DNA of 64,000 bases from Acidobacteriota bacterium (GTDB lineage Bacteria; Acidobacteriota; Vicinamibacteria; Vicinamibacterales; UBA2999), in assembly GCA_018000455.1 (NCBI GenBank), contig JAGNJW010000003.1:62001-126000 (forward strand), in the 5' to 3' direction. The notes beneath the pieces were generated by a model, which saw only the letters and a program-made list of their open reading frames with translations, did no database searches and was not told the origin of the DNA. This document shows, one piece after another, positions 4,013 to 36,528 of the stretch; the first letter of the stretch is position 1; each line of letters starts with the position of its first letter. Position numbers and translations under genes: made by a program.

Positions 4013-5101
4013 GTGCCGACCTCCACTTGGCTCGCCGCTGCGCTGGCGCTCGGAAGCGCCGGCGTCGTCCTGACCGCGCAGGCGCCTGCGCCGTCTGCCG
4101 ATCCCGAGCGACGCCTGCTCCCGCTGACCGACTTCCGGCTCGAGAGCGGCGCCGTGCTGCCACACGCCAGCGTCGCCTACGCCACCTTCGGCACGCTCAA
4201 CGCGGCGAAAGACAACGCCGTGCTCGTGGCGTCGTACTACGGCGCCGACTATCACGGCTACGACTTCCTCATCGGCCCGGGCAAGGCACTCGATCCGGCT
4301 CGCCATTTCGTCGTGACGACCGAGATGTTCGGCAACGGATTCTCGTCGTCGCCCAGTAATACGCCGGCGCCGATGTCGGGGCCCGACTTTCCGGCCATCG
4401 CGATTCGTGACAACGTCGAGGCCTCGCGGCGCGTGCTGGAGCATCTGGGCGTGACGCACGTGCGCGCGGTGATGGGGTTCTCGATGGGCGCCGAGCAGGC
4501 GTTCCAGTGGGCCGTCTCTCACCCGATGTTCATGGATGCCATCGTGCCCTGGTGCGGCACGGCCAAGACCTATCCGCACGGCATCGTGCGGCTCGAAAGC
4601 GCGATTCGCGCGCTTACCGCCGACCCGGCCTTCAACGGCGGCCGCTACACCTCACCGCCCAAGGCCGGCATGGCGGCGTGGTCGACGCACTGGGCGGCGT
4701 GGGTGTGGTCGCAGGAGTGGTGGCGGCGCGAGCTCTTCAAGCCGCAGTCGGCCACCGTGGAAGAGGCGCTGGCCGCGCGGATCGCCCGTGATGCCACGCG
4801 CGATCCGAACAACCTGATCCTGCACGCGCGCACCTGGCAGACGCACGATGTCGGCGACACGCCCGGCTTCGGAGGGGACCACGAGCAGGCGCTCAGATCG
4901 ATTCGCGCGCGCGTGCTCTACATGCCGTGCCAGACCGATCTCTATTTCCCGATCGGCGATGCCGAGTACGAGCGCCAGTTCCTGAAGGACGTGTCGTTCG
5001 TGCCCATTCCGTCGCTGTGGGGCCACTCGGCCGGCGGCGGCGGCAACGCCGCCGACGCGGCCTTCATCAACGAGCAGATCCGGTCGTTCCTCGCGCGGTA
5101 A
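4013..5101 (+). CDS. exported alpha/beta hydrolase, homoserine acetyltransferase-like (MetX fold)
   Basis: The 362-aa protein has a GTG start and an N-terminal signal peptide (LAAALALGSAGVVLTAQA). It then shows the MetX-like alpha/beta hydrolase fold. The nucleophile elbow GFSMGAEQAF places Ser157; the acid is probably the Asp in PCQTDLYFP and the base the His in LWGHSAGGGG. True MetX enzymes are cytosolic, so an exported member more likely acts as an esterase or hydrolase than in methionine synthesis. It is divergent from the ADOP permease gene. The substrate is not predictable. Confidence 0.82.
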   Translation: MPTSTWLAAALALGSAGVVLTAQAPAPSADPERRLLPLTDFRLESGAVLPHASVAYATFGTLNAAKDNAVLVASYYGADYHGYDFLIGPGKALDPARHFVVTTEMFGNGFSSSPSNTPAPMSGPDFPAIAIRDNVEASRRVLEHLGVTHVRAVMGFSMGAEQAFQWAVSHPMFMDAIVPWCGTAKTYPHGIVRLESAIRALTADPAFNGGRYTSPPKAGMAAWSTHWAAWVWSQEWWRRELFKPQSATVEEALAARIARDATRDPNNLILHARTWQTHDVGDTPGFGGDHEQALRSIRARVLYMPCQTDLYFPIGDAEYERQFLKDVSFVPIPSLWGHSAGGGGNAADAAFINEQIRSFLAR

Positions 5102-33587: not shown

Positions 33588-34193
33588 ATGTGCGGCACGA
33601 TGCGAGACCCCGGCAACGCTCGGCCCGGATGTCCCTGCCACGACGGCTCCCGCCGGCGGGTGCTCCGCGGGGCCGCCAGCCTCGCACTTGCGTGGCTCAC
33701 GCCCCGGGCGGGCAGGGCTCAGGATGGGCGCGCGACGCGGCCCGGTGCCGGCGATCTGTTGGTGAAGGTGGGTGATGCCAGCGCGACGCCACTGGCGCCA
33801 GCCGATATCGTGGCTGGCCCCGCGCCCACGCTTGCCTGGCCCATGTCGTCGGCCGACCGCGTCGTGCGCAGCGGCTCGAGGCTCAACCGCGTGGTGCTCG
33901 TGCGCCTCGACAGGGCGACCCTCGGCGAGCGCACCCGCCCGAGGTCCGCCGACGGCATCGTGGCCTATTCCGCCATTTGCACGCATACCGGGTGCGAAGT
34001 GGGCGCCTTCCTCCCCGAGGAGCAGATGCTCTACTGCGAGTGCCACCAGTCGCGCTTCGATCCGCGCGAGGAGGCCAAGGTCACCGATGGTCCTGCGCCG
34101 CGCAACCTGCCGGCGCTGCCGCTGAAGGTCGTGGACGGGTTGCTCGTCGTGGCCGGTCCCTTCAGCACGCGGCCGGGTTTCGAGCAGGGCTAG
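33588..34193 (+). CDS. exported Rieske [2Fe-2S] protein
   Basis: The 201-aa protein has an N-terminal twin-arginine-like signal (SRRRVLRGAASLALAWLTPRAGRAQ). A Rieske domain follows with CTHTGC (Cys131, His133, Cys136) and CECHQS (Cys150, Cys152, His153). The second Cys of each motif would form the disulfide typical of high-potential, bc1-type Rieske proteins. No cytochrome b gene is near. The next gene, 65 bp downstream, is a PQQ dehydrogenase without its own haem, so this protein may be its electron acceptor; that is inferred. The first ATG is used, but the Met at 33600 is equally possible. Confidence 0.87.
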   Translation: MCGTMRDPGNARPGCPCHDGSRRRVLRGAASLALAWLTPRAGRAQDGRATRPGAGDLLVKVGDASATPLAPADIVAGPAPTLAWPMSSADRVVRSGSRLNRVVLVRLDRATLGERTRPRSADGIVAYSAICTHTGCEVGAFLPEEQMLYCECHQSRFDPREEAKVTDGPAPRNLPALPLKVVDGLLVVAGPFSTRPGFEQG

Positions 34194-34258
34194 CAGTACG
34201 AACGGGGAAAGCAGACACGGCATCGCGTGGCCCTGACCGCGCGACAACGGAGGATGGC

Positions 34259-36028
34259 ATGCGCGTGACCAGGTTCGTGCTGGCGGTGACTGGCTCGGCG
34301 ATACTCTCGCTCGGTGCGATCGGCGCCGCGCAGCGGCCGGCCCCCCCGCCGCCGCCGGCACCGGCGTTGCCGATGCCGGCCATCCTCAAGGCCTATCCGC
34401 CGGTGACGGCTGAGCGGCTCCTGACGCCCGCCGACCACGAGTGGCTGATGATCCGCCGCACCTATGACGGCTGGGGCTACAGTCCCCTGGAGCAGATCAC
34501 TGCGGCCAACGTCGCCCGTTTGCAGCCGGTTTGGATTGCCTCCACCGGCGCCACCAACGGCCACGAGGCGGCCGCGCTCGTGAACGGCGGCGTGATGATC
34601 GTGTCCACGCCGGGCAATCAGGTCATCGCGCTTGACGCCAGGTCCGGCCGCGTGCTCTGGCGCTACCGCCGTCCCCTGCCGGAGGACGCGGTGGTGATGC
34701 ATCCCACCTCGCGCGGCGTGGCGCTCTTCGGCGACAAGGTCTACCTGCCGGCCAACGAAGGCGTGCTGGTGGCGCTCGATGCGCGCACCGGCAAGGAAGT
34801 GTGGACGGCGGCGGTCGGTGAGAATCAGCGCGGCTACTACATGACGCTGGCGCCGCTCGTGGCCGAGGGCCTGGTGATGATCGGCGCCTCGGGCGGCGAG
34901 TTCGGCATCCGCGGCTTCGTCGCCGCCTACGACGTCGAGACGGGCAAGCAGGCGTGGAAGACCTACATGGTGCCGGCGCCGGGGGAGCCCGGCAGTGAGA
35001 CGTGGCCGAAGGGCGACCAGTGGAAGACCGGCGGCGCGCCGGTGTGGGTGACGGGCAACTACGATCCGGCGACGCGCCTGGCCTACTGGGGGACCGGCAA
35101 CGGCGGCCCGTGGATGGGCGATCAGCGCCCGGGCGACAACCTCTACACCGCGTCGACCGTGGCGCTCGACGTCCGCACCGGGCAGATCCGCGGCCACTTC
35201 CAGTACCACCCGAACGACTCGTGGGACTGGGACGAGGTATCGCCGCCGATCCTCGTCGATTACCAGCGCGCCGGCCGCACCGTGAAGGGCCTCATCAACG
35301 TGGCGCGCAACGGCTACTTGTGGTTTCTCGAGCGCAGCAGCGGGCCGATTGGCTTCGTGCAGGGCATGCCCTACGTGCGCCAGACGGTCTTTCGCAGTCT
35401 CGACCCGAAGACCGGCCGCCCCGACATCGACCCGGCGCGCAAGCCCGGCACGGGGAAGAAGGCCGACGACATCTGTCCGTCGCACTGGGGCGGCAAGAAC
35501 TGGCCGCCGATCGCGTTCAGCCCGAAGACGCGCATGATCTACATCCCGGCCAACGAGAACCTGTGCGACTGGCTGACCGGCAACGAGGTGGAGTACGAAG
35601 CGGGCGAGCGCTTCATCGGCGCCACCAGCGGCCTGCAAATCGTGCCCGGCGCCGACCACATCGGCGAGGTGCAGGCCTGGAACGTCGATACCGGCCAGCG
35701 CGTGTGGACGCACAACTACCCGACCTCGCCCACGTGGGGCTCGATGCTGGCCACCGCCGGCGGGCTCGTGTTCTCTGGCGGCACCAACGATCGCAAGCTG
35801 CACGCGTTCGACGCCGTGTCGGGCAAGCTGCTGTGGGAGTTCCCGACCAACTCGGGCATCCTGGCGCCGCCGACGTCGTTCTCGATCGACGGCAAGCAAT
35901 ACATCGCCGTGCAGTCGGGCTGGGGCATCGACTCGCGCGGGATGCAGAGCCGGCTCAACACGCTGACCCAGGGCGGCTACCCCGAGGTGCCCGAGGGCGG
36001 CGCGATCTGGGTTTTCGCGCTGCCGTGA
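34259..36028 (+). CDS. PQQ-dependent alcohol dehydrogenase-type propeller, no haem
   Basis: The 589-aa protein has a signal peptide ending near GAIGAAQ, a Pro-rich linker, then a full PQQ propeller. Blade motifs such as VIALDARSGRVLWRY and VALDARTGKEVW recur. The active-site loop NDSWDWDEVSPPILVD carries the catalytic Asp. There is no CxxCH, so electrons must leave to a separate carrier. GGAGG at 34249-34253 fixes ATG 34259. It follows the Rieske gene and precedes the DUF411 gene by 20 bp, so the three probably form one unit. Confidence 0.88.
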   Translation: MRVTRFVLAVTGSAILSLGAIGAAQRPAPPPPPAPALPMPAILKAYPPVTAERLLTPADHEWLMIRRTYDGWGYSPLEQITAANVARLQPVWIASTGATNGHEAAALVNGGVMIVSTPGNQVIALDARSGRVLWRYRRPLPEDAVVMHPTSRGVALFGDKVYLPANEGVLVALDARTGKEVWTAAVGENQRGYYMTLAPLVAEGLVMIGASGGEFGIRGFVAAYDVETGKQAWKTYMVPAPGEPGSETWPKGDQWKTGGAPVWVTGNYDPATRLAYWGTGNGGPWMGDQRPGDNLYTASTVALDVRTGQIRGHFQYHPNDSWDWDEVSPPILVDYQRAGRTVKGLINVARNGYLWFLERSSGPIGFVQGMPYVRQTVFRSLDPKTGRPDIDPARKPGTGKKADDICPSHWGGKNWPPIAFSPKTRMIYIPANENLCDWLTGNEVEYEAGERFIGATSGLQIVPGADHIGEVQAWNVDTGQRVWTHNYPTSPTWGSMLATAGGLVFSGGTNDRKLHAFDAVSGKLLWEFPTNSGILAPPTSFSIDGKQYIAVQSGWGIDSRGMQSRLNTLTQGGYPEVPEGGAIWVFALP

Positions 36029-36048: not shown

Positions 36049-36528
36049 ATGCGTACTAGAGCCATTGCCATTGCCGTTGCCCTGGCCGCCGTGGCCGCGA
36101 CCGGATTCGGGCTTGCCGCTCAGGCACAGAAGCCCGCTGCCTCCGCCGCGTCCAGGGTGGTCGTCTACAAGTCCCCGACTTGAGGGTGCTGTAGCGCCTG
36201 GATTGAACATCTCCGGGCGGCAGGCTTCCAGGTGGAAGCCCACGACGTGACCGATCAACGTCTCGACACGGTGGCCAGCGAGGCCGGCGTGACCAACGAC
36301 CTGCGCTCCTGCCATACCGCAAAGGTCGACGGCTACACGGTGGAAGGCCACGTGCCGGCCACCGACATCCGGAAGATGCTCAAGGAGCGGCCGAAGATCA
36401 GCGGCATCGCCGTGCCCGGCATGCCGATGGGTTCTCCCGGGATGGAGCAGGGCGGCATGAAGGACCCCTACGACACGGTGGCCTTCACCAAGGGCGGCGC
36501 CAAGACGGTCTACGCCCGCCACCCCTGA
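36049..36528 (+). CDS. exported DUF411 protein with in-frame TGA at the first motif Cys (possible selenoprotein)
   Basis: The frame from ATG 36049 encodes a signal peptide (AIAIAVALAAVAATGFGLAA), then VVVYKSPT, a TGA codon (36181-36183, codon 45), and continues without break as GCCSAWIEHLRAAGF. Later come RSCHTAKVDGYTVEGHVP and ISGIAVPGMPMGSPGME. DUF411 proteins have TCGCC at this point, so TGA replaces exactly the first Cys. Read through, the product is 159 aa, normal for the family of metal- or redox-linked periplasmic proteins. Either TGA is read as selenocysteine or the gene carries a single nonsense mutation (TGC or TGT to TGA). The intact downstream frame and a hairpin just after the TGA favour the first. 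sel genes were not seen in the window. Confidence 0.78.
36189..36223 (+). promoter_or_regulatory. hairpin after in-frame TGA, candidate bacterial SECIS element
   Basis: Positions 36195-36202 pair with 36212-36219 (CGCCTGGA with TCCGGGCG, one G-U pair), giving an 8-bp stem and a 9-nt loop. CTG/CAG pairing below (36189-36191 with 36221-36223) extends it across a small internal loop. The apical loop begins 20 nt after the TGA, within the distance usual for bacterial SECIS elements. The first G of the loop is third, not in the first two positions, unless the loop is folded more tightly (GAT with ATC). The function is a hypothesis. Confidence 0.45.

Follow-up and report, generated by a model that had tools for sequence, protein, structure and literature searches.

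CopG-like proteins (DUF411, COG3019) are periplasmic proteins of copper resistance that hold a tetranuclear copper cluster by means of a CxCC motif and two methionines, and their proposed function is the oxidation of Cu(I) and the transfer of copper to other proteins (review PMC7558416). The CopZ-like 2Fe-2S protein, the SO_0444 Cu/Zn efflux transporter and SaoB/SaoC (PMC13188914) are known selenoproteins in which selenocysteine (Sec) stands where a Cys probably binds metal or takes part in redox chemistry; they differ from DUF411 by family name and domain. The Sec-containing glutaredoxins and thioredoxins resemble the protein of the present study in their thioredoxin fold and in having Sec first in a motif that follows strand 1, but they carry UxxC, whereas this protein has U-G-C-C together with invariant Met, His and Cys residues and belongs to the CopG family. 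It is like CopG in fold, in its CxCC and Met motifs and, by inspection, in its export signal, but differs in having a predicted Sec in place of the first CxCC Cys and a SECIS-like hairpin within the coding region.

The gene lies in a stretch of 64,000 nt (the window; positions are counted from its first letter) from an Acidobacteriota bacterium (GCA_018000455.1, contig JAGNJW010000003.1, positions 62,001-126,000 of the forward strand). On the + strand, 36049-36528 forms a single frame of 44 codons, a TGA at 36181-36183, a further 114 codons and a terminal TGA at 36526-36528, giving a product of 159 amino acids if the internal TGA is translated. The first-pass annotation, made from the sequence alone, had described this intact frame on both sides of the stop and had placed the TGA at the first Cys of a TCGCC motif; reading of the frame and alignment to CopG, which has CGCC at this place, bore out both statements. 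The assignment to DUF411 also held, since the product (read with Cys at the TGA) matched the PF04214 profile with an E-value of 5e-28 and a DUF411 search of the same genome returned this gene at 6.7e-28. The identity with CopG, a copper-cluster protein, had not been named.

By sequence, the only relative of solved structure was PDB 6WIS/6WJE (48% identity to 6WIS), which a fold search named as CopG. An AlphaFold2 model with Cys substituted for Sec (pLDDT 90.8) superimposed on CopG with a TM-score of 0.90-0.93 to the target and an rmsd of 1.4-1.6 A. In an alignment of 49 proteins, Sec/Cys45, Cys47, Cys48, Cys88, His89, His101, Met125 and Met132 were invariant, and invariant or nearly invariant residues flanked the TGA on both sides. 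On the window, all on the + strand, the predicted Sec45 is followed by the remainder of the CxCC motif (Cys47 and Cys48, 36187-36192), by Cys88-His89 within SCHT (36310-36315) and by MPMGSPGM (36421-36444), whose Met125 and Met132 are likely copper-site methionines by analogy with the description of CopG (PMC7558416). The protein therefore combines the PF04214 profile, the predicted CopG fold, a CxCC motif with Sec as its first residue and both methionines. Its start (36049-36126, MRTRAIAIAVALAAVAATGFGLAAQA) was recognised by inspection as a probable signal peptide, which would direct export to the periplasm; this N-terminus was of low confidence in the model.

DUF411 was present in 58 of 99 related genomes, and the codon at the motif position was TGA in 21 of these and TGC or TGT in 37, with no TAA, TAG or TGG among the 58. 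Twenty of the 21 TGA relatives had the motif UGCC and one (G074) had UPCC. A DNA pattern scan for UGCCxxW[IVM]xH[LM] with TGA at the first position found the pattern in 13 of 396 Acidobacteriota genomes, and the same pattern with TAA or TAG in none of the 396. A stop that is free of coding constraint should drift among the stop codons, so that the fixed TGA argues for decoding. When GTDB species genomes were scanned with the TGA pattern, at least 117 stretches matched, and at least 113 of the 117 listed were DUF411 genes with the in-frame TGA at the motif codon; three matches (L057, L120, L163) were due to chance and were not DUF411, and L112 was left out of the count. Among the listed matches these genes came from more than 100 species in about ten phyla, the taxa being assigned from record titles and NCBI ranks: Acidobacteriota, Pseudomonadota (Beta and Gamma), Myxococcota/Deltaproteobacteria, Thermodesulfobacteriota, Gemmatimonadota, Rokubacteria, Methylomirabilota, Tectimicrobiota, Nitrospinota, Binatota, Chloroflexota and Actinomycetota. 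Since metagenome bins made up most of the sources, an individual phylum label may be in error.

The UPCC gene of G074 (L171, about 4026-4466) escapes the UGCC pattern, so pattern scans undercount. Three bins titled 'Bordetella parapertussis' (L054, L132, L166) carried environmental betaproteobacterial Sec-DUF411 genes, and their titles look misassigned. Two relatives first scored as 'TAG' (G051, G026) were rejected as cases of UAG-encoded Sec: the motif codon was TGC in both, and the TAG probably stands at the end of the gene. All DUF411 matches in a plasmid search were below 60% identity.

In Betaproteobacteria the Sec-DUF411 gene was found among genes for CusF, cupredoxins, a multicopper oxidase and an outer-membrane efflux protein; overall, CusF made up 9 of 40 downstream neighbours and cupredoxins 8 of 48 upstream neighbours. 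In the window, the genes immediately before DUF411 encode a Rieske protein and a PQQ-dependent dehydrogenase (33588-36028), and 20 nt separate the end of the dehydrogenase gene from the DUF411 start. These neighbours give no pointer to copper, and the copper role of the window protein therefore rests on homology. The PQQ dehydrogenase was considered as an operon partner and rejected: in close Acidobacteriota members (L064, L105) the ORFs next upstream differ in size, and hence no function was drawn from it. A PCYCGC protein (PF13798), of a family that is among the selenoproteins of the 2026 catalogue (PMC13188914), adjoined one Sec-DUF411 gene (L053, 3494-4036). Twin-arginine-like starts (RRx followed by F, L, V or M) were seen in 31 of 130 TGA genes, many of them betaproteobacterial (e.g. 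L059, L069, L119); such a leader would imply that the selenoprotein is exported already folded, perhaps with its metal bound.

A role in copper handling is the probable one for the window protein, though by a fair distance less secure than its status as a selenoprotein. Glutaredoxin-like thiol-selenol redox chemistry in place of copper handling is the less likely function, at odds of somewhat under one in three; weak glutaredoxin-like profile matches and the lack of copper genes beside the window gene speak for it, but it does not account for the CopG fold, for the invariance of CxCC and both methionines, or for the copper genes that surround the betaproteobacterial members.

Decoding of UGA as Sec requires a dedicated machinery, and selA, selB, selC and selD were all found in the host genome (5.19 Mb, 100% complete). 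SelA scored 520 bits, SelB 311 bits and the tRNA-Sec, with anticodon TCA, 64.8 bits; in SelD the codon at the usual Sec position was an in-frame TGA (LTEMVSCAGUASK, C52:114870-115790, L214), so that SelD is itself a selenoprotein by its sequence. A match of about 50 bits to the tRNA-Sec model in the same genome (L003) proved to be tRNA-Ser(UGA), and the count was therefore limited to matches that scored above 60 bits. On this basis tRNA-Sec was present in 15 of 19 TGA relatives examined. Among TGA-DUF411 genomes from lineages outside the relatives, 47 of 50 had SelA above the curated cut-off, two had SelA as contig-end fragments only, and the last (G127) had tRNA-Sec. Within the relatives the link between Sec and SelA was weak, SelA being found in 20 of 21 TGA genomes and in 27 of 37 Cys genomes (Fisher p 0.04, relatedness uncorrected, since too few phylogenetically independent pairs were available). 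In one TGA relative, a draft of 580 contigs (G036), neither SelA nor tRNA-Sec was found.

A SECIS-like hairpin lies at 36195-36219 (+ strand), about 12-36 nt after the UGA, with 36195-36202 paired to 36212-36219 around the loop 36203-36211; this is the 8-bp stem with its loop at +20 that the first-pass annotation had pointed out. The bacterial SECIS model has a loop of 3-9 nt, a stem of 4-16 bp, a loop position 16-37 nt after the UGA, an MFE of at most -7.5 and a G in the first two positions of the apical loop (PMC13188914). With a loop of 9 nt, a stem of 8 bp, a spacing of 19 nt and an MFE of -13.6 kcal/mol, the window hairpin lies within the limits of spacing, size and energy. In the most stable fold the G of the loop (UUGAACAUC) is at position 3, as against 1-2 in the model, whereas an alternative fold with the inner pairs A36202-U36210 and U36203-A36209 has the loop UGAAC, with its G in the modelled place. 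The window hairpin alone goes only modestly beyond chance (z -2.1; 8 of 200 shuffles were equally stable), and it is the comparative evidence that carries the observation beyond it.

In TGA genes, positions +15 to +20 pair with +26 to +31. Pair 19-27 exchanges G-C for A-U, with both sides changed in 30 of 105 sequences. Covariation in this helix exceeded that of all 500 shuffles in the TGA genes but was not above that of their own shuffles in the Cys genes, and the pairing gave a Fisher p of 9e-8 in TGA genes and of 0.39 in Cys genes, related sequences being counted in all these tests; correction for relatedness left the direction the same, with independent pairs too few for significance. Measured against synonymous re-codings, the region +6 to +45 had a mean z of -0.98 in 108 TGA genes and of -0.29 in 38 Cys genes, the former being the more stable (p 0.0009). 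The hairpin was conserved among TGA genes, whereas Cys genes had a weaker one or none. Betaproteobacterial members had hairpins of 11-12 bp. A single RNAalifold run across all TGA genes gave a weak 4-bp consensus because lineages use different registers, and per-lineage folds were clearer.

Some bacteria have tRNAs that read UGA but carry an amino acid other than Sec, and the codon might be read through as Cys or another residue, for instance in a recoded genome or through a UCA tRNA that accepts Cys. This is very improbable for the present gene, which itself terminates with TGA and in which UGA replaces Cys at one site only; the genome holds a standard tRNA-Sec together with SelA, SelB and a Sec-containing SelD, nearly every TGA genome examined has SelA, and such a read-through would leave the hairpin unexplained. 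Slightly less probable still is the production of two polypeptides, in which translation would stop at the UGA to yield a short secreted peptide and a downstream restart, such as the GTG at 36232, would yield another. A GTG-start frame of 98 amino acids does exist downstream of the TGA, but the restart would drop the CxCC motif and the first strand of what is a single CopG fold, the stretch from the TGA to the restart holds G-C-C, W and H codons that vary little or not at all, and in the Cys relatives the frame is uninterrupted.

Selection on the codons downstream of the TGA was purifying: the median dN/dS was 0.26 over 91 pairs, and pN was below pS in all 91. The first-pass annotation had given a single nonsense mutation as the plain alternative. 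A decaying DUF411 gene with such a mutation, or with a sequencing error, would be the simplest reading of one stop in one frame of the window, and G001 of the same genus has TGC. This reading has a negligible probability and is already refuted by recurrence: more than 100 species share the TGA at this codon, among them a named strain that is not a bin (Parendozoicomonas callyspongiae, L104), neither TAA nor TAG was seen there, and selection after it is purifying.

On a tree of 153 rows, which had few columns and many unresolved forks, Sec and Cys must have been exchanged no fewer than 12 times, three of these changes being forced by well-supported branches, so that the exchange looks frequent. 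G001 was placed among the TGA members of its own genus. In this genome (L014) the TGA is replaced by TGC at 1621-1623, the hairpin is lost at 1624-1668 (z +0.79) and SelA is still there, and a recent reversion from Sec to Cys is likely.

The sel genes, the recurrent TGA and the hairpin all agree with the selenocysteine first suggested for this codon, and we put the probability that the UGA is decoded as Sec in a CopG-family protein at about 0.94. We infer the actual insertion of Sec, the binding of copper and the chemical role from what can be read in the sequences, namely the TGA recurring at one Cys, the Sec machinery, the hairpin, the purifying selection, the predicted CopG fold and the copper neighbourhood in Betaproteobacteria. 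The gene would encode an exported, copper-binding CopG of thioredoxin fold in selenoprotein form. SelB and tRNA-Sec would read the UGA of codon 45 as Sec, guided by the hairpin about 12-36 nt downstream, and the Sec would take the place of the first Cys of CxCC, the motif of the tetranuclear copper cluster in CopG. The selenolate may then serve as a copper ligand or as a redox residue, and may tune Cu(I)/Cu(II) chemistry or the hand-over of copper to partners such as multicopper oxidases and cupredoxins.

The first-pass annotation knew of no Sec-containing DUF411 protein, and neither DUF411, PF04214 nor CopG appears in the 2026 catalogue of 119 prokaryotic selenoprotein families and subfamilies (PMC13188914). 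NCBIfam 20.0 returned no DUF411 selenoprotein model, and no paper relevantly linking DUF411/COG3019 with selenium was found in a search that had preprints and most subscription journals outside its scope. Sec-DUF411/CopG is thus very probably a widespread selenoprotein family that is missing from current catalogues, whose genes would be cut short or overlooked by standard gene-callers. The selenoproteins would gain a family of at least 100 species and about ten phyla, and selenium would enter bacterial copper handling. Since the copper-cluster structure of the Cys form has been solved, a comparison of Sec with Cys is directly testable. A natural copper-selenolate cluster, in which Sec alters how tightly CopG binds copper and how the metal changes between Cu(I) and Cu(II), and for which some ten phyla spend their Sec machinery on periplasmic copper handling, is a tentative proposal that we rate at a little short of an even chance. 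The family may partly explain why the costly Sec machinery has been kept by some Betaproteobacteria, Gemmatimonadota and Vicinamibacteria.
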